NCBI GenBank assembly: GCA_026004795.1 | Contig: BPJV01000010.1 | Location: forward strand, 1 to 64,000 | DNA length: 64,000 bases | Source: Pirellulaceae bacterium | GTDB taxonomy: Bacteria > Planctomycetota > Planctomycetia > Pirellulales > Pirellulaceae | Direction: 5' to 3' | In this document: piece by piece, positions 8,453 through 18,069 of the stretch | Layout: the number at the start of each line of letters is the position of its first letter | Position numbering within the stretch: position 1 is the stretch's first letter | Program-made: the position numbers and the translations under genes | Notes under the pieces: generated by a model | Seen by the model: the letters and a program-made list of their open reading frames with translations, nothing else | Told to the model about the DNA's origin: nothing | Database searches by the model: none

Positions 8453-8599
8453 TGTAATGTCTCTCTGAGGATGATATCTGGCATTCTTGCCCCGCCCGTC
8501 AAGTTTCTACTTGCGCGATGCCTTGTTCTGAAGCATGCTTCCGGTAGTCAGGCCGAATGGCCAATTGCCGATCCAGCAACTCTACCAAGCGAGGCAGCC

Positions 8600-9526
8600 T
8601 TGACGCCCTTTAAGAAACGAATGAATGGTTATATCAAGCGGATGGCCGAGGACATGCAACTACGGAACTTCTCGCCCAGTACCATCGACTCCTACACCTA
8701 CCACGTCGACAAGTTCTGCCAGCACTTCGGCAAGACCGCAGACCGGCTGGGCCCCGAAGAGATCCGGTTGTATCAGTTGCACCTGGTCAATGAGAAGAAA
8801 GTTTCCTGGAGCAGCTTCAACCAAGCCGTTTGTGGCCTAAGGTTTCTGTACACCGTGACGCTCGGCAAGGACTGGGCCATCAAACACATTCCATTCGGCA
8901 AACGACCCAAAAAACTGCCGACTGTGCTCTCCAACGAAGAAGCTTGCCGGTTATTCGAATGCCTTCACAACCCCAAACACCATGCCGTCCTGCTGACTTG
9001 CTATGCAGCCGGCCTGAGACTCAGCGAGGCGACGCACCTGAGGGTGGCCGACATCGACGGCGACCGTTCGCAACTGACGATCCGCCACGGCAAGGGGCGC
9101 AAGGCCCGAGTTGTCCCAGCATCCCCGCGACTGCTCGAGGCACTGCGAACGTATTGGAAGATCGACCGGCCGCGGGACTTTCTGTTTCCCGGCAAGACGC
9201 CCGACAGCCCGCTCTCTTCGGCGACGGTCCAGAAAGCATGCAAGCTGGCGGTGGCCAAGGCGGCAATCACCAAGCCGGCCGTCACCCCACACACGTTGCG
9301 GCACAGTTGGGCCACCGGAATGCTCGAAGCGGGCGTGGACTTGCTGACCATCAGCAAACTGATGGGACATTCCAGCTTCGTCACCACGATGGTCTACCTG
9401 CACGTCCGGCGTCAGCATCTGGACCGGTCGCCCAGCCCGATCGACTGGTTGCCGGTGAGGCAATGTCCGCGATGGGCCGAGCCACGACAGGACGATCCGC
9501 CGACCAAGAGCAACGGCCGCGGGTGA
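8600..9526 (+). CDS. Tyrosine recombinase/integrase of the IS91-type element
   Basis: A XerC/D-like recombinase of about 308 residues from the TTG at 8600, which has GAGG 5 nt upstream. The frame is open from 8471, but the extra N-terminus does not resemble the family. The N-terminal SAM-like domain is LRNFSPSTIDSYTYHVDKFCQHFG. The catalytic domain shows AAGLRLSEATHLRVADID (first Arg), HGKGRKARVV (Lys), HTLRHSWATGML (His-x-x-Arg) and MGHSSFVTTMVYLHV (His and nucleophile Tyr), so the catalytic set is complete. The stop codon TGA overlaps the downstream transposase frame, indicating coupled expression. It probably helps process or resolve the element. Confidence 0.9.
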   Translation: MTPFKKRMNGYIKRMAEDMQLRNFSPSTIDSYTYHVDKFCQHFGKTADRLGPEEIRLYQLHLVNEKKVSWSSFNQAVCGLRFLYTVTLGKDWAIKHIPFGKRPKKLPTVLSNEEACRLFECLHNPKHHAVLLTCYAAGLRLSEATHLRVADIDGDRSQLTIRHGKGRKARVVPASPRLLEALRTYWKIDRPRDFLFPGKTPDSPLSSATVQKACKLAVAKAAITKPAVTPHTLRHSWATGMLEAGVDLLTISKLMGHSSFVTTMVYLHVRRQHLDRSPSPIDWLPVRQCPRWAEPRQDDPPTKSNGRG

Positions 9527-10797
9527 TCGATTTATTGCGGCAGTTCACTCCGCGGTTCATGATGCGGAATCGTACGCATCCCCAAGTCAAGAGCGTCCTG
9601 TCGAAGATTCTGCTCTGCCGCACGGCGGTCCTGAAAGGACACGTCTATGAGTGCAACCGTTGTCGGTCGCGGATCAACGTGTACAACTCGTGCACCGACC
9701 GGCACTGTCCGCAGTGTGGGGGAGCCAGGCGGGCGGACTGGATGGACAAGAGCGCCGAAGTCCTGCTGCCCGGCGTGCCGTACTTTCAAGTCGTCTTCAC
9801 GCTGCCCGACAAACTTTCGTCGTTGATTCTCGGAAATCGGAGCGAGCTTTACAGCTTGTTGTTTCAAAGTGCTTGGCGGGCTCTCGATAGTGAACTTCGC
9901 CGCACGGGCAAGTTCCACCCGGCGGCACTGATGATTCTCCACACATGAAACCAACAGTTGGAACACCATCCGCATATTCACGCGGTGGTTCCCGGAGCCG
10001 GACCGTCGCTCGACGAGGACCGGTGGGTCGTGGCGAAACATCCAAGGCACCGCCGTCGCAAGAAGCCGTACCTGACCGATCATGTCGAACTTGGCCGGGC
10101 CTTTCGCAAGTGCTTCGTTCGCGGTCTGAGACGACTGCTTCGCAAGGGAACGCTCAAGCTCGGCGGAAGCGTGGAGTTTCTGAACGGTCCAGCTCAACGC
10201 GACGCCTGGCTCAACGAGCTCGAAGCGACTGACTGGAACGTGTTCATCGAAGGCCCTCCCAGCGGCCACAGCGACCCGGCGAATGTCATCAAGTACTTGG
10301 CCCGTTACCTGACCGGCGGTCCGATCGCCGACAGCCGCATCATTCGTGCCAACCAGGACGAAGTCTGGTTCTGGGCCCGGCCCAAACGAGCTTCGGGCAA
10401 AAAGCGACGCGGCATGCACAAGCCGCGGCCATTCCGCCTCGCCGCGGATCAGTTTATGACGCGATGGACAACTCACATCTTACCCAAAGGCTTTACCAGG
10501 TCCCGTTCCTATGGTGGCTACCATTCCCGCAAGCGAAAAAGTTATCTCAATCGATGTCGTGAACTGCAGTGCCCGAAGCCAGCCGAAGAACCCGTCGACG
10601 AGATGACAAATCCAGTCATTGCCAGTTCACAACCCGAACTCCGTTGTCCGCGTTGTGAGGGCGAGGTTGCCTGCATTCAAAGCAGCAAGCGCCCCAGTTG
10701 GCGGCAAATCTTCGACCGCGACATCTACCAGGTCGCGGGCTTATACAGTCCGATGTTCCACGTGCTCTCTCGCGCCCCGCCTCGGAGACCGCGTTGA
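9463..10797 (+). pseudogene. IS91-family transposase interrupted by an in-frame TGA
   Basis: The frame encodes an N-terminal zinc-finger region (CNRCRSRINVYNSCTDRHCPQCGG), then FQVVFTLPDKLSSL, and after the break HHPHIHAVVPGAG, the HUH rolling-circle nickase motif, followed by VIKYLARYLTGGP and FHVLSRAPPRRPR near the end. At 9946-9948 the codon is TGA where the family has Trp: LHT-stop-NQQLEHHPHIH continues in the same frame, so a single G-to-A change split the gene. The upstream piece lacks the HUH motif and should be inactive. The start is uncertain; ATG 9463 and 9472 follow GTGAGG, and a GTG at 9523 overlaps the recombinase stop. Confidence 0.85.
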
Positions 10798-11097: not shown

Positions 11098-12831
11098 ATG
11101 TTGAGGGTCAGTATCGGGCAATACTCCGATGCGGGGGTTAAACCGATCAACCAGGATTTTCACGGTTGTGTTCATCCCTGGGACAGATTGCTGCTTACGA
11201 AGGGTGTGGCCGTCGCTCTGGCCGACGGCATCAGCAGCAGCGAGGTGAGTCAGATCGCGGCAGAAACCGCGGTAAAGAGTCTGCTCACCGATTACTACGC
11301 GACTTCGGAAGCATGGCCTGTAAAAACGGCCGTCCATCGGGTGTTGACCGCCACCAACTCCTGGTTGTACGCGCAGTCGCGAAGGGGACCATATCGCTTT
11401 GACCTCAACCGCGGTTACGTGTGCGCATTCAGTGCCGTGGTGATCAAGTCACGCACGGCTCACCTGTTCCAGGTCGGTGATGTGCGCATCTGCTACCTGG
11501 CTGGCGAGAAGTTACAAGACTTGACCGACGTCCATCCGGTATGGGTGGACGGTGAGACACGGTATCTGACTCGTGCAATGGGCATGCGCGAGCATCTGGA
11601 GTTGGACTATCACCGATACATGGTCGAACCGGGGACGATTCTCGTATTGATGACCGACGGCGTGTATGAGCACGCGAGCGATCATGAGATTGCCCGCATG
11701 ATACGGGAGCATGCCAACGATCTTGATCGTGCCGCACAATGCATCGTGCAAACTGCGCTGAACAATGGCAGCGGTGACAACCTTACGATCCAGATCGTGC
11801 GCGTCGACGAGGTTCCCTCTCCCAGCCTTGATGACCTCAACGACCGCACCATGCTGCTGCCGCTTCCTCCGCCCGTTCAGGTGCGGAGCGAGCTGGATGG
11901 ATATCGCATTCTCCGCGAGCTGCATCACAGTCCGCGCAGTCATGTGTTCTTGGCTCAAGATCGAATTGACGGCACACGAGTAGTGCTGAAGATTCCTGCG
12001 GCTGATCGCCGTGAAGATAGTGCCTATCTTGAACGATTCTTGATGGAAGAATGGGTCGCTAGCCGCATCGACCATCCCTGTGTGGTGAAAGCGGTGGCCA
12101 ATGACCGCCCACGCAGCCATTTGTACACTGTCTTCGAGTACGTCGACGGACAGACGCTGGAACAATGGATGCGGGATCATCCCCAACCCGAACTGGAAAC
12201 GGTTCGGAGGCTGGTTGAGCAACTTGCCAAGGGGCTGCGTGCTCTCCATCGACAGGAGATTGTTCATCAGGACCTGCGTCCGGCGAACATTCTGATTGAT
12301 GCCACCGGGAACGTGAAACTGATCGATTTCGGCTCGGCACGCGTTGCGGGGCTTGCGGAATTGGCCTTTCCACCCGACGAATCCTTCTTGCCAGGCGCTG
12401 ACCCCTACATGGCACCGGAGTGTTTTCTCGGACAACCAGGTACGATGCAGTCCGACTTGTATTCCCTAGGGGTAATCACGTATCAAATGCTCAGTGGTGG
12501 GGCTCTGCCATACGGCACCGATGTTGCCAAGATTAGCACTCGGGCTTCCCGCAACTGCTTGCGCTACCGTTCGTTGCAAGAAGTTGGGCGGCCAATTCCC
12601 CTGTGGGCCGACGGCTGTATCAAAAAAGCGGTGCACCCGAAACCAGAGTGGCGTTACGATAGCCTGTCCGAGTTCCTGGATGACTTGCGTCATCCCAATC
12701 CAGACCTCATGTCCGAGCGCTGGATGGCATTCCTCGAGCGCCATCCGTTGCTTTTTTGGAAAACGGTTTCTCTGGTGTTACTTATTGCAAATTTGGTGTT
12801 GCTGTATACTCATCCGGGATTGCTCCCCTGA
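11098..12831 (+). CDS. Bifunctional PP2C-type protein phosphatase / serine-threonine protein kinase
   Basis: A 577-residue fusion. Residues 1-240 are a PP2C phosphatase with metal-binding motifs: NQD at 18-20, ALADGISSS near 40-48, LMTDGVYEH and NGSGDNLT. A kinase domain follows, with VVLK (ATP-binding Lys) near 300, HQDLRPANILID (catalytic loop) near 387, LIDFGSARV (Mg-binding DFG) and DPYMAPE. The catalytic loop has Arg where Lys is usual (HxDLKPxN). The C-terminus has one membrane segment, LFWKTVSLVLLIANLVLLY, so both domains face the cytoplasm at the inner membrane. Genes of this architecture are found with nitrate/nitrite transport genes, which fits the FNT gene at 7359; the IS91-type element lies between them. 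The targets are unknown. Confidence 0.9.
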   Translation: MLRVSIGQYSDAGVKPINQDFHGCVHPWDRLLLTKGVAVALADGISSSEVSQIAAETAVKSLLTDYYATSEAWPVKTAVHRVLTATNSWLYAQSRRGPYRFDLNRGYVCAFSAVVIKSRTAHLFQVGDVRICYLAGEKLQDLTDVHPVWVDGETRYLTRAMGMREHLELDYHRYMVEPGTILVLMTDGVYEHASDHEIARMIREHANDLDRAAQCIVQTALNNGSGDNLTIQIVRVDEVPSPSLDDLNDRTMLLPLPPPVQVRSELDGYRILRELHHSPRSHVFLAQDRIDGTRVVLKIPAADRREDSAYLERFLMEEWVASRIDHPCVVKAVANDRPRSHLYTVFEYVDGQTLEQWMRDHPQPELETVRRLVEQLAKGLRALHRQEIVHQDLRPANILIDATGNVKLIDFGSARVAGLAELAFPPDESFLPGADPYMAPECFLGQPGTMQSDLYSLGVITYQMLSGGALPYGTDVAKISTRASRNCLRYRSLQEVGRPIPLWADGCIKKAVHPKPEWRYDSLSEFLDDLRHPNPDLMSERWMAFLERHPLLFWKTVSLVLLIANLVLLYTHPGLLP

Positions 12832-13151: not shown

Positions 13152-14132
13152 TCACCAGGCCCCTGCGGGTGGTCGCCACCGTCGGCCGGTGGCGCTGTGC
13201 CAAGGAAGTATCGGCTCGGGGCCATGCGGCAGGTGGGACAATACGTAGCGGACGACGGGAAGGGACAGGCTGTTACCCAGCAACTTCCACATGGTCCGCG
13301 GAGTCCCCGGTGCGAGGTGGAAGGTGTCAGGGAATCCGAGCAGTCGCGCGACTTCGCGCGGGCTGAACCTCCGCCAACCAGGACGGCCAGACCGATCATC
13401 GAGCCAATAGGAGCCAGCGTTGAGGATTGTCTTCCCGTAGGCCGCGGTGAAGCACGCGGTGGGACGGAGCGATGCCGGGCCGCAACGATCCAGAGCATCA
13501 CGATAACGGTGGCTGACGTCCTCGGGGAGACGAAGGTCGGTCATGCCGTCGCTTGCCAACTCCGAAGGCGATTGTACCAATTGCCCCACATCGAGGTGGT
13601 ACAACGGCTTGGGACGCCAGGGACGGCACGACGCTTGGCCGGCGATAAGGTAATATCTGGGCCGACGATTCGGCCAACCGAATTCGGCGGGACACAAGAG
13701 GGTTTCCTGGTAGTGGTATCCGCGGCGCTCGAGCACCGATTGCAACTGGTATCGACTATGCGATTGGCGGAAGGAGGCCACGTTTTCCAGCACCAGCCAG
13801 GCAGGGCGGTAGTGCTCGATTGCTCTCAAACATGCGCGCAACCCCTCCGCGCGGCGGTCCAGCCAATCTCGTTGTTTTCCTCGTTGCGTGTACGGTTGGC
13901 ACGGCGGTGACAGCCACCAGGTTGGGCGCGTCAAAAGCGAACTCAGTGGCGGTCGCTCGATGGCCCCTTCGTCGATGGTAAGGACTTCATAGCGATGCCG
14001 AAAATTGGCGCGATACACCGCCGCGGCTTGCCGGTTGATGTCAACGGCCACCACATTCTCGGCCTCCGGCCAGGCACAGGCCACACCACCGATTCCGGCA
14101 AACAACTCCAGCACACCACCGGTGTCACCCAT
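13152..14132 (-). CDS. Dnmt2-like cytosine-C5 methyltransferase (probable tRNA methyltransferase)
   Basis: A 326-residue cytosine-C5 methyltransferase. Motif I is LELFAGIGG (8-16), motif IV SPPCQP with the catalytic Cys at 78, motif VI VLENVASF (114-121), motif VIII NRRPRYYLI, and motifs IX-X LLGFPDTFHL and WKLLGNSLS. Residues 227-233 read CFTAAYG, the CFT-x-x-YG signature that separates Dnmt2/TRDMT1 from restriction-type C5 methyltransferases. Dnmt2 proteins methylate C38 of tRNA; the Geobacter homologue acts on tRNA-Glu. There is no restriction endonuclease or very-short-patch gene nearby, which also favours tRNA. The start lies 6 bp after the lactonase stop, so the two are probably co-transcribed. 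The substrate is inferred, not shown. Confidence 0.85.
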   Translation of the reverse strand: MGDTGGVLELFAGIGGVACAWPEAENVVAVDINRQAAAVYRANFRHRYEVLTIDEGAIERPPLSSLLTRPTWWLSPPCQPYTQRGKQRDWLDRRAEGLRACLRAIEHYRPAWLVLENVASFRQSHSRYQLQSVLERRGYHYQETLLCPAEFGWPNRRPRYYLIAGQASCRPWRPKPLYHLDVGQLVQSPSELASDGMTDLRLPEDVSHRYRDALDRCGPASLRPTACFTAAYGKTILNAGSYWLDDRSGRPGWRRFSPREVARLLGFPDTFHLAPGTPRTMWKLLGNSLSLPVVRYVLSHLPHGPEPILPWHSATGRRWRPPAGAW

Positions 14133-14138
14133 CGCGCG

Positions 14139-15287
14139 CTACTCTTGGTGGAACAGGACGCAGATCGGCGATGGGGTGGAGATGACGCTTCCGTTGTAAG
14201 TGATTCTCCCAGTGGCCTCATCGACTGCGAATGCCGTCAAGGTATGCGAATCTTGTCCACCGACTACTAGCCAATGACCATCGGGGGAGAGGTTGAAATT
14301 GCGCGGCGTTGCCCCACGCACCGGTTCAATCTGCAGTCGTTCCAGCCGTCCGTCGCTCTGGATGGCGAACACGCTAATCGTGTCGTGCCCACGATTGGCG
14401 GTGTACACGAATTTTCCATTGGGGTGGATACGAATCTCCGAGGCGCTAACAAATTTCTCTTTCGCCAACTCTTCGGGAGGAACGGTGGGCACGGTTTCTC
14501 GCATGGTCATCGTTCCCTCTTCAGCGTTGTAATCAAAAAGAGAGACCGTCAAAGTAAGCTCGTTGAGCACGTAAGCCCATCGGCCATTGGGGTGAAACTT
14601 CATGTGTCGTGGCCCACTGCCAGGAGGCACATCCGCTTTACCATGAGGTGCTACCGTGGCCTTGTCCAATTCAACGCGGTAGATCACCACTTGATCGAGT
14701 CCGAGGTCGGGAACAAACGCGTAACGGCCATCGGGCGAGAAGCCTGCCCAATGCGGATGAGGACTTTCTTGACGATTGGCCACTACCCCTGAACCACCCT
14801 CATGTGGAATCAAGCCGGTCCGCTGGGCGATGGAGCCATCCTCTTCCAAAGCGAACGTGGCCACGGTGCCGCCACTATACTGCGCCGTGATCAGCATCTT
14901 TGCGGACGGATGCACCGACAGGTGCGTTCCACGTCCTCCGCCAATGGCCTCTTGGTCGCTCAACTCCAAAGCAGCCTCAGCTCCGGTGCTGACGATGCGG
15001 TAGGCGGCAACACACGGTTCACCGTTCAACTGGCCCACCGCGTACAAGTGGGATTTGCGGGGATGGAGCGCGAGAAAACCGGGACCGACGATCTCGGCGA
15101 CCAACCGCGAGTCGCTCAACACGCCTTCCTTCGCGTCAAGTTGGCAATGGTAGATGCCGCGGCTAAGTTTGCTGCTACTTGTTCCCAACCAAATATCGTA
15201 TTTCTGGGCAACCGCTGCGCTGCTCAACACACTTACTCCTGTCACGAACACTACTCCCAGGATCCAAACGTTGGTCATCTTCGCCAT
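14139..15287 (-). CDS. Exported lactonase-family seven-bladed beta-propeller (6-phosphogluconolactonase-like)
   Basis: About 382 residues from the ATG at 15287, which has GGAGAG 7 nt upstream; the frame also opens from a GTG at 15302. The N-terminus is a signal peptide, VWILGVVFVTGVSVLSSAAVAQ. The mature part carries propeller repeats typical of the Pgl/YbhE lactonase family: GFLALHPRKSHLYAVGQ, THLSVHPSAKMLITAQYSGG, PHWAGFSPDGRYAFVPDLGLD, GPRHMKFHPNGRWAYVLNEL and EIRIHPNGKFVYTANRGHDTI. Cytoplasmic members hydrolyse 6-phosphogluconolactone; an exported member must act on another lactone or sugar ester, so the substrate is open. It is divergent from the DUF1549 gene at 15354 and upstream of the Dnmt2-like gene. 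Confidence 0.87.
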   Translation of the reverse strand: MAKMTNVWILGVVFVTGVSVLSSAAVAQKYDIWLGTSSSKLSRGIYHCQLDAKEGVLSDSRLVAEIVGPGFLALHPRKSHLYAVGQLNGEPCVAAYRIVSTGAEAALELSDQEAIGGGRGTHLSVHPSAKMLITAQYSGGTVATFALEEDGSIAQRTGLIPHEGGSGVVANRQESPHPHWAGFSPDGRYAFVPDLGLDQVVIYRVELDKATVAPHGKADVPPGSGPRHMKFHPNGRWAYVLNELTLTVSLFDYNAEEGTMTMRETVPTVPPEELAKEKFVSASEIRIHPNGKFVYTANRGHDTISVFAIQSDGRLERLQIEPVRGATPRNFNLSPDGHWLVVGGQDSHTLTAFAVDEATGRITYNGSVISTPSPICVLFHQE

Positions 15288-15289
15288 GT

Positions 15290-15318
15290 TTCGGCTCTCC
15301 ACGAGAATGGTTTATACT
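15290..15318 (+). promoter_or_regulatory. Possible promoter in the divergent lactonase/DUF1549 interval
   Basis: TATACT (15313-15318) is a good -10 box. A weak -35 (TTCGGC, 15290-15295) lies 17 bp upstream. The start would be near 15325, about 29 bp before the GTG at 15354. Confidence 0.33.
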
Positions 15319-15353: not shown

Positions 15354-18069
15354 GTGGCTTATCATAGCCAATGGATCACGCCAATAGTTTCCCACCACAC
15401 GCAATCGATGCTCATCATGGCTGTACCTGAATCGAATTATGCCGTTGCGGCGATCGTAGTCCTAGGGGCGCGGATCAAGCGCTCAACATGTGTGGCGGCC
15501 ATCGCGGCTTGTATGTCGGGCGTTCATCTGCTCGGTGGTTGCCTCATCGGGGGCAACAGTATCGTGGCCGGCAGCGAGCCGCCAGCAGCAGGCTCGCCAT
15601 CGACCTCCGGCGCGGTCGATTCCACCGTGGACGAGTACCTGGTCTTACCCGCCGAATTGCGTTTGGATGGCTATGGCGCACGTGCCAATTTGCTGGTGCA
15701 ACGTGTAGAGGACGGCCGGGTGGGCGAGCAGGTCCAGCCACTGCGGGTCGAAGTCGACGATCCGGCAGTGGCCGAAATCGTTGATGGCCAAGTCGTGGCT
15801 CGGGGAAACGGTCAGACGCAGGTGGTTGTTACCGTGGAGAGCCAGCACCGTGATCGACCGCCATCTTCGTTTCAGATGCCGGTGCGAGTGTACCGTGCGT
15901 CGCAACCTATGGATGTCGAGTTCGTGGCACATGTCGAGTCGATCTTGTCCAAACGAGGCTGCAACAGCGGCGCTTGCCATGGCGCCTTGGCGGGCAAAGG
16001 AGGATTGCGGCTTTCCTTGCGCGGTTACGACCCGGTGGCGGATCACTTTGCCATTACCCGCCAGGATCGCGGCCGGCGTATTGAACCGGCGGAGCCTGGC
16101 AGGAGTTTACTGCTTACGAAACCCACGGGGGTAGTGCCGCACAAGGGGGGAGTTCGTTTGGAGTCCGATTCATCGGATTTCCAGTTGCTCGCTCGGTGGA
16201 TCGCCAAGGGGTTTCCCGGCCCCAAGGCCGATCAAGCGGTGTTGGAGGAGATTGAGGTACTGCCAGCCGAAGTGCGGTTGGCCGTGGGACAGCGGCAACA
16301 GATAGTCGTGCGCGCCCATTATGGGGATGGGCGTATCGAAGACGTCACCCAGTGGGCCAAATTCAGCTCGGCGGATGAGACCGTAGCGCGAGTCGATGCC
16401 GACGGAAAGGTATCCGTGGTCGGCCACGGCAGGGGCGCGGTGGTGGCATGGTTTGCCAGTCGCATTGCGCTGGCGCGGATCACCGTGCCTTACCAGCAGA
16501 AGGTGGTTGACGAGGAGTATGCGAGCTTCGCACCGCAAAACCTGATCGACGAAATCTTGTGGGAAGAATGGAAAACACTACGACTTTCTCCGTCTCCGCC
16601 GTGCTCCGATGCTACTTTCTTGCGCCGCGCCTGCCTGGATGCGACGGGGCGATTGCCCACCGCCGAGGAGGTGGCAGATTTCTTAGCCGATCCGGCGCCG
16701 GATAAGCGGCAGCGGCTTGTCGACCACTTGTTGGCTAGCGAAGGTTTTGTCGACTATTGGTCCTACAAGTGGTCCGACCTCTTGTTGATCAATGGTACCC
16801 CTGCTCCGCCCCGATGCGGTAAAGGCGTTTTATGGCTGGGTACGTGCGCAGGTAGAACAAAACACTCCTTGGGACCACATGGTACGGCGGATCATTCTGG
16901 CCCGGGGGGATAGCCTGGCTGATGGAGCGACGAATTTTTATGCCATTCACCAAACACCGGAAGCGATGACGGAAAACGTTTGCCAAGCGTTCATGGGGTT
17001 ATCGATCAGTTGCGCGAAATGCCATAATCATCCTCTAGAAAAATGGACCAACGACCAATACTATGCCATGGCGAACCTCTTCGCTCGCGTGCGTGCTAAA
17101 GGCTGGGGAGGCGATTCTCGCAATGGCGATGGCAAACGTACCTTGGTGGTGCTTGACCGCGGCGATTTGATTCAACCACGCACCGGTCGTGCCCCACTTC
17201 CAGCTCCGCTGGACGCGGCCCCCATCGATCCAGATGCTCCCGGCGATCGCCGCCAGTACCTGGCCGAGTGGCTGGTTAGTCCGGATAACCCCTACTTCGC
17301 CCGGGCCATTGTGAACCGCGTGTGGGCCAACTTTTTCGGCGTTGGTCTAGTGGAACCCGTCGACGACCTGCGTGCCAGCAATCCGGCGAGCAGTCCCCGC
17401 TTGCTGGACGCCCTGGCAGCCTATCTGATCGATCACGACTACGATCTCAAGGCGCTCATGCGGCTGATGATGAATTCGGCCGTGTATCAGTTGTCCAGCG
17501 AACCGCTTCCCAGCAACGAAGCGGATCATCGTTTCTATTGCCGCTACTACCCCCGCCGCCTGATGGCCGAAGTACTGCACGATGCGGTGGTCAGTGTTAC
17601 CGAGGTGCCAACCAAGTTTACCCACATCGAGTACCCAGGTGCCGATCGCCGGGCCATCGACTTTTATCCGGTCGGCACGCGAGCCATCGAGTTGTACGAT
17701 TCGGCAGTCGCCAATTACTTTTTGCAGACGTTTGGGCGGCACCAACGTCGCATCACGTGCGAATGCGAACGCAGCAACGAACCGACCGTGGTGCAGGCGC
17801 TCCATCTGAACAACGGTGACACATTAAATCAAAAACTGGCTGACCCTCAGTGTAGGATCACTCGATGGTTGGAGCACGATCTCGCATTGGAGCAAGTTGT
17901 CGATCAAGCCTACGTGCGGTGTCTCTCCCGTTGGCCAGATCCCCAGGAACGCCACCGTGTGTTAGCCGAAATGGAGCAGGCGGAGCGTGCCCAGGTTCCG
18001 CGACGGCAGTTGTACGAGGACTTGCTGTGGAGTCTAATGACCAGTCGTGAGTTTCTATTTGCTCACTGA
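15354..18069 (+). pseudogene. BIG2/DUF1549/DUF1553 planctomycete cytochrome-like protein, frameshifted
   Basis: Together the two frames encode about 904 residues, the usual size of this family. The GTG start has AGAGGA upstream. After a hydrophobic leader ending LLGGC (possible lipobox) come an immunoglobulin-like (BIG2) region, a haem-like site NSGACHGA, the DUF1549 domain (FLRRACLDATGRLPTAEEV) with a CAKCHNHP site, and DUF1553 (RAIVNRVWANFFGVGLVEPVDD). The frame changes at a C run (16798-16801). Removing one C joins SDLLLING to TLLRPDAVKAFYGW, which matches family sequence, so this is a one-base insertion or a sequencing error. These proteins are abundant in planctomycetes, often near polysaccharide and sulfatase genes, with unproven function. 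Confidence 0.85.

Follow-up and report, generated by a model that had tools for sequence, protein, structure and literature searches.

The locus examined here raises a question of substrate. It lies in a 64,000 nt stretch of DNA from a Pirellulaceae bacterium (contig BPJV01000010.1; "the window" hereafter means this whole stretch) and encodes a cytosine-C5 methyltransferase that can be read either as a Dnmt2 enzyme, modifying position 38 of a tRNA, or as a DNA methylase; if the former holds, the further point is which tRNA the enzyme would modify.

Regarding the gene itself, it is an intact open reading frame of 326 amino acids on the minus strand (13152-14132), with its ATG at 14132 and its stop codon at 13152, as read from the ORF and its translation. 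The protein matches PF00145 with an E-value of 6.3e-36, far beyond chance; this is its sole Pfam domain, so that the protein is short, single-domain and without an extra regulatory domain. The only PF00145 protein found in the genome of origin is the product of this gene, recovered there as two stretches of one gene. Its motifs are ELFAGIGG, SPPCQPYTQRG, ENV, NRRPRYY, ACFTAAYGK (which contains the CFT signature), RRFSPREVARLLGFP and LLGNSLSLPVV; we take the first four to be motifs I, IV, VI and VIII, respectively, and RRFSPREVARLLGFP and LLGNSLSLPVV to be motifs IX and X. The string CFTAAYG, on which the first-pass annotation had relied, is present exactly as given there.

The core of a cytosine-C5 methylase is complete, as the PPC, ENV and RxR residues are all present. 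On the minus strand, motif IV (S75-P-P-C78) lies at 13899-13910, motif VI (E116-N-V) at 13779-13787 and motif VIII (R157-P-R159) at 13656-13664, while the CFT signature (C227-F228-T229), which adjoins motif IX, is found at 13446-13454. C78, predicted to be the catalytic nucleophile, occurs in 72/72 bacterial Dnmt2-like, 4/4 eukaryotic and 16/16 DNA methylase rows, and the same counts apply to motif VI and to both arginines of motif VIII. Eight positions carry the same residue in all 72 bacterial rows, namely C78, E116, N117, V118, R157, R159, F228 and Y232.

As for the family, the names of the NCBIfam and PADLOC models do not tell Dnmt2 from DNA methylases: the closest NCBIfam model is the dcm superfamily, just under its cut-off (98 vs 100.65 bits), and the PADLOC matches among those listed (25 of 48) are only DNA cytosine methylase models, type II included. 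In the PDB sequence search, the best matches are five Dnmt2 sequences (7.9e-32 to 5.8e-26), with the M.HhaI variants at 1.9e-16 or weaker, more than 9 orders of magnitude behind. Foldseek, run with the AF2 model of the protein (pLDDT 93.7), returned Dnmt2 in the top 9 chains and M.HhaI next; the VIA-align Z values of the model, 33.7, 31.3, 30.5, 29.4 and 28.8 for the Dnmt2 entries and up to 29.4 for M.HhaI, overlap, so that structure alone would not decide between the two, the margin being thin.

The CFT motif, described as confined to Dnmt2 in the account of Jurkowski and Jeltsch from 2011 (PMC3227630), is taken here as a mark of this family. It occurs in 60/72 bacterial, 4/4 eukaryotic and 0/16 DNA methylase rows (one methylase has no residues at that place), the first of these counts being biased towards CFT by a locus scan that used peptide patterns including CFTAAYGK; among the rows obtained solely by the other genome search, outside the pattern scan, 5/8 have it, and either CFT, CFA or CFG is found in 70/72 bacterial rows.

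Two trees were built. The careful one (54 of 92 rows, with a bootstrap that had not settled) splits 41 bacterial and 4 eukaryotic Dnmt2, the window protein among them, from 9 DNA methylases at 100/100; besides thinning, it omits 7 of the 16 DNA methylases for their length or divergence, as well as L068, a long row that stands outside the other 71 bacterial rows in the quick tree. The quick tree (92 rows) separates the Dnmt2 side from the 16 DNA methylases with a support of 99. Eleven fragmentary loci (L064-L067, L069, L081-L084, L087 and L088) and four duplicates (L071, L072, L077 and L089) were left out of both trees, L085 and L086 were classed as DNA methylases in the counts, and M.HhaI, compared by sequence and structure, has no row of its own in the tree. 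When the window protein and its sister L070 are made to join the HhaI/Dcm-like clade, the tree becomes 108 log units worse and the placement is rejected (p-AU 7e-46); a weaker constraint, under which the pair need only share one side of a single branch with the DNA methylases, is not rejected (AU p 0.387), because it lets the pair sit at the root of the Dnmt2 side, a position that is still outside the DNA methylases. The phylogeny against restriction methyltransferases, put forward in the first-pass annotation as a check, hence finds the protein outside the DNA m5C methylases. A restriction-type methylase was ruled out by the PDB ranking, the 100/100 split and the rejected HhaI/Dcm-like placement, and the protein is almost certainly a member of the Dnmt2 family; the proposal of a bacterial Dnmt2 holds, with CFT present, a place on the Dnmt2 side of the tree and no restriction partner among the neighbours scanned.

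The distribution of the family was assessed in several collections. One scan of a species-level genome collection gave 68 loci, with the NCBI labels Thermodesulfobacteriota (21), Planctomycetota (19), Myxococcota (11), Acidobacteriota (7), Pseudomonadota (7), Actinomycetota (1) and none (2). These loci are mostly from metagenome bins, 'Deltaproteobacteria' are filed under Myxococcota and two labels are doubtful (L067, 'Klebsiella', and L026, Acidimicrobiia); named strains include Geobacter argillaceus, Rhodopirellula solitaria CA85 and Roseimaritima sediminicola JC651. A search of 60 relatives, a set that counts the genome of origin, found matches at E <= 1e-10 in 18; two of these (G056 and G058) cluster with the DNA methylases, so that 16 remain. 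When the phylum was sampled evenly, with at most 5 candidates scored per genome, 8 of 393 genomes, again counting the genome of origin, had a match at E <= 1e-25, and six of the eight holders belong to the window's family, Pirellulaceae; the gene is patchy in the phylum and concentrated in Pirellulaceae. The idea that a planctomycete member widens the distribution is thus borne out, as Dnmt2 loci exist beyond Geobacter and 19 of them are labelled Planctomycetota; no report of a planctomycete Dnmt2 was found in the open-access literature, a scope outside which subscription journals mostly fall. Phage (50,697) and plasmid (72,556) records held no close match to the protein: 196 phage and 109 plasmid record matches were obtained, none reaching 60% identity, the best among the 40 rows listed having 28.3%; a mobile-element origin was rejected on this ground.

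Within the trees, the window protein belongs to a planctomycete group of 11 to 12 sequences (96/94 in the careful tree, 98 in the quick one), and its nearest relative, L070, is 55% identical to it over the tree columns; the same ORF is present in L003 and in the same-genus genome G013. The Geobacter sequences group elsewhere, together with further Thermodesulfobacteriota and 'Deltaproteobacteria', and the eukaryotic Dnmt2 make up a single clade (100/97) next to the bacterial one; the bacterial rows as a single clade have a support of 85/83 in the careful tree and 62 in the quick tree, which is not firm. The 2011 phylogeny (PMC3227630) included bacterial Dnmt2 from Geobacter only and suggested a transfer from eukaryotes. 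Holding the Geobacter group and the eukaryotes as a clade makes the tree 30.6 log units worse, with a modest p-AU of 0.036, for a hypothesis that was named after the tree had been seen and for a six-row group that includes L030 and L034, not labelled Geobacter. As this clade is disfavoured, the result argues, in a tree with four eukaryotic rows only, against a eukaryote-to-Geobacter transfer. In the window clade (12 rows), 7 have CFA or CFG instead of CFT, and 4 of the other 60 bacterial rows lack the T; this loss hints at a relaxed or altered recognition in the clade, with rows that are related and do not constitute an independent test.

Turning to the neighbourhood, a 7-bladed beta-propeller lactonase (14139-15302, minus strand; PF10282, E 1.1e-106) lies upstream of the methyltransferase, and 6 nt separate its stop codon from the methyltransferase ATG; since the two genes share strand and are so closely spaced, they are probably co-transcribed. 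The lactonase is predicted to be exported from a signal-peptide-like N-terminus recognized by eye. By tblastn, a lactonase stands beside Dnmt2 in 1 of 88 loci only (L070, with the same order and strand); the 88 include duplicates and fragments, and in several loci of the same genus the flank is only ~1.5 kb long, too short for a more distant partner to be seen. The pairing with an exported lactonase that had been pointed out is therefore real as adjacency, and a functional partnership is not supported, given this lack of recurrence among the 88 loci.

No nuclease or restriction enzyme was named by Pfam among the 12 proteins between 7.3 and 20.5 kb, methyltransferase included, nor did PADLOC name a nuclease on 10 neighbours (for the kinase, among the 25 of 37 families listed); within the neighbours scanned by these tools, the claim of a missing restriction partner is supported. 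The genes of this interval encode a formate/nitrite transporter, a tyrosine recombinase, a Y2 transposase, a PP2C-kinase fusion, the lactonase, a DUF1549/DUF1553 protein, a histidine phosphatase, a shikimate kinase and a prepilin-peptidase-like protein. Some of them have features of their own. At 8471-10797 (plus strand), the tyrosine recombinase adjoins the Y2 (IS91-like) transposase, which looks broken by eye, its N-terminal part seemingly being in another frame, at the end of the ORF 8830-9948. The PP2C phosphatase and the Ser/Thr kinase are one fused protein (11098-12831, plus strand), and PADLOC kinase models such as PD-T4-6 match its kinase half, probably as a generic kinase only. The PSCyt2/PSD1 (DUF1549/DUF1553) gene (15354-18069, plus strand) is present as a pair of ORFs that overlap in different reading frames, and each of them matches a part of the PSCyt2 profile, a pattern that indicates a frameshift or a sequencing error.

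Across the loci, no family-wide partner gene was found, and shared neighbours occur mostly within close groups. When the neighbour ORFs were clustered, one set covered 12 loci and held 14 minus-strand ORFs, of which 11 partly overlap the methyltransferase of their own locus; no Pfam match was obtained in the 7 ORFs scanned, and the set probably consists of antisense frames. One 4-locus set that spans distant groups is of histidine kinase type (20-29% identity) and is taken as generic; the remaining 4-locus sets are within close relatives. Downstream on the plus strand, a lipoprotein-like ORF is seen by eye in L028, L039, L056, L059 and L061, and a glyoxalase-like one in L034, L036 and L047; a CorC-type gene is upstream in L002, L069 and L075, the Pfam scan covering the L002 copy. 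A promoter and terminator scan gave no signal above shuffles.

With the family established, the substrate was approached through the tRNA genes, none of which was found within the 64-kb window. The genome of origin (96.8% complete) gave 43 tRNA genes, and its sole tRNA-Asp found has the loop CUGUCGA, that is G37 and A38. Having A and not C at position 38, this tRNA cannot carry m5C38, and it was ruled out as a substrate; the first-pass annotation, which had proposed tRNA C38 methylation with tRNA-Asp among the tRNAs to be examined, has to be amended on this point. C38 is present in only four of the 43 tRNAs, namely Glu(UUC) (CUUUCAC), Ala(UGC) (UUUGCAC), Gln(CUG) (UUCUGGC) and His(GUG) (UUGUGGC); the other tRNA-Glu, with the anticodon CUC, has G38, and both Gln(CUG) and His(GUG) have G37 in place of A37. 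The classical loop is CUGUCAC, from which that of Glu(UUC) differs at position 34 only. Glu(UUC) is the best candidate because its loop is so near the classical one and because the Geobacter Dnmt2 is listed with tRNA-Glu (PMC5372726), a preference also reported for that enzyme in PMC5456315; by this analogy, it would quite plausibly be the main substrate.

The same positions were read in other genomes, with tRNA patterns that missed some of them; matches without a locus or without an ARAGORN Asp or Glu call (for instance G003 for Asp and G010 for Glu) are uncounted, and G061, which repeats G013, is counted once. Among the planctomycete Dnmt2 holders read, Glu(UUC) has C38 in 17/17 and tRNA-Asp has A38 in 16/18. 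The non-planctomycete holders read have C38 in tRNA-Asp in 10/10 cases and in Glu(UUC) in 2/3, the exception being the acidobacterium of L004, in which position 38 is A in Glu(UUC) and C in Asp. The tRNA-Asp loop is reported to be perfectly conserved in Dnmt2-bearing species (PMC6409601), a rule that the planctomycete A38 breaks. It should be noted that A38 is not a consequence of having Dnmt2: it occurs in 15/18 relatives without Dnmt2 whose tRNA-Asp was read, which are mostly from the same order rather than the same family and include G058, with its DNA methylase match. Being equally common without the enzyme, A38 is therefore a lineage trait; likewise, C38 in Glu also occurs in relatives without a Dnmt2 match and thus has no specific link to the enzyme.

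Some further observations concern the order as a whole. A tRNA-Asp with G37-A38 instead of A37-C38 is widespread in it, with or without Dnmt2 (e.g., L185, L161 and L176), and a few members have A37-C38 (L180, L197 and L198). In G048 (L216 and L174), which has no Dnmt2 match, the tRNA-Asp and tRNA-Glu(UUC) read both have A38, an anecdotal case.

The observed family, intact catalytic residues and distribution of C38 lead us to propose that the enzyme is probably a bacterial Dnmt2 making m5C38 on tRNA, most likely on Glu(UUC). We infer that it would be S-adenosylmethionine-dependent and would follow the chemistry of DNA methylases, with C78 attacking C6 of the target cytosine, assisted by E116 and the two arginines, to give 5-methylcytosine at position 38 of the anticodon loop. 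Activity on tRNA, as opposed to DNA, is judged likely. The substrate here would most likely be tRNA-Glu(UUC), with the loop CUUUCAC, since position 38 of tRNA-Asp is not a cytosine, and the modification might fine-tune the decoding or charging of Glu, or keep the tRNA from being cleaved, effects that have been suggested for Dnmt2 enzymes elsewhere.

Three other readings were weighed. If Dnmt2 acted on C38 of Ala(UGC), Gln(CUG) or His(GUG), alone or together with Glu, rather than on tRNA-Glu alone, this would agree with their being the only other C38 tRNAs among the 43, and the context CAC-GCA of Ala(UGC) resembles the CAC-GCG reported for other Dnmt2 substrates (PMC6409601), so that its 3' flank puts Ala(UGC) in second place and Glu is not the sole candidate. 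However, the one studied bacterial homologue is described as a tRNA-Glu enzyme (PMC5372726 and PMC5456315) and Gln and His depart from A37, which makes this reading unlikely.

A little further from the data is an orphan Dnmt2-like DNA m5C methylase, acting on genomic DNA either in gene regulation or as the remnant of a restriction-modification system: the PF00145 and PADLOC type II matches, the fold and catalytic residues common to both families and the unrejected one-branch constraint would all suit it, but the grouping with Dnmt2 at 100/100, the exclusion from the HhaI/Dcm-like clade, the CFT motif and the missing restriction partner among the neighbours scanned speak against it, and we consider it decidedly unlikely. 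Less probable still is that the gene is a non-functional or drifting relic, kept by chance only after tRNA-Asp lost C38; the patchy spread in the phylum sample, the A38 of most planctomycete holders and the loss of T in 7/12 of the window clade could be understood in this way, but an intact frame, a confident AF2 model and eight residues unchanged in all 72 bacterial rows could hardly be. A tRNA methyltransferase with Glu(UUC) as its likeliest target is, therefore, the reading retained.

As for its meaning, the Dnmt2 family is known, and what is new is a planctomycete member whose tRNA-Asp lacks C38, together with a corrected substrate prediction. The planctomycete Dnmt2 separates the enzyme from tRNA-Asp and offers a natural test of what Dnmt2 does with tRNA-Asp ruled out, and of how the family chooses its tRNA; the scattered bacterial family also provides more material on the origin of eukaryotic Dnmt2. 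A tentative and rather doubtful history would start from an old, scattered bacterial family with m5C38 of tRNA-Glu as its original job; planctomycetes would have dropped C38 from tRNA-Asp and kept the enzyme, and eukaryotes would have acquired a bacterial Dnmt2 and moved it to tRNA-Asp, with no passage from eukaryotes to Geobacter.

Compared with known systems, one of the closest is the Dnmt2 of Geobacter sulfurreducens (GSU0227; tRNA-Glu m5C), also bacterial; its own sequence is absent from the set, and Geobacter is represented by L014, L023 and L040, which have CFT, fall on the window protein's side of the tree and are 40-43% identical to it. The tRNA-Glu substrate is reported for Geobacter (PMC5372726 and PMC5456315) and predicted for the window protein; the Geobacter genomes read (L194 and L195) keep C38 in tRNA-Asp, whereas the window genome does not, and the planctomycete and Geobacter groups form distinct branches. 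The abstract of PMC5456315 states that 'bacterial DNMT2 acts as a DNA methyltransferase', with M.HhaI and M.HaeIII counted under that name. Such M.HhaI/Dcm-type DNA m5C methylases have the fold, shared motifs and catalytic residues of the window protein, but they have no CFT motif, and the Dcm-type rows are on the other side of the tree. Eukaryotic Dnmt2/TRDMT1 (human, 1g55; S. pombe Pmt1, 6fdf; Spodoptera, 4h0n; Entamoeba EhMeth, 3qv2) provides the closest solved structures, both by sequence and by Foldseek, and has the same motifs, CFT included; it forms a clade of its own (100/97), separate from the window protein, and its main reported target is C38 of tRNA-Asp (PMC5372726), the very base that is absent in the window genome.
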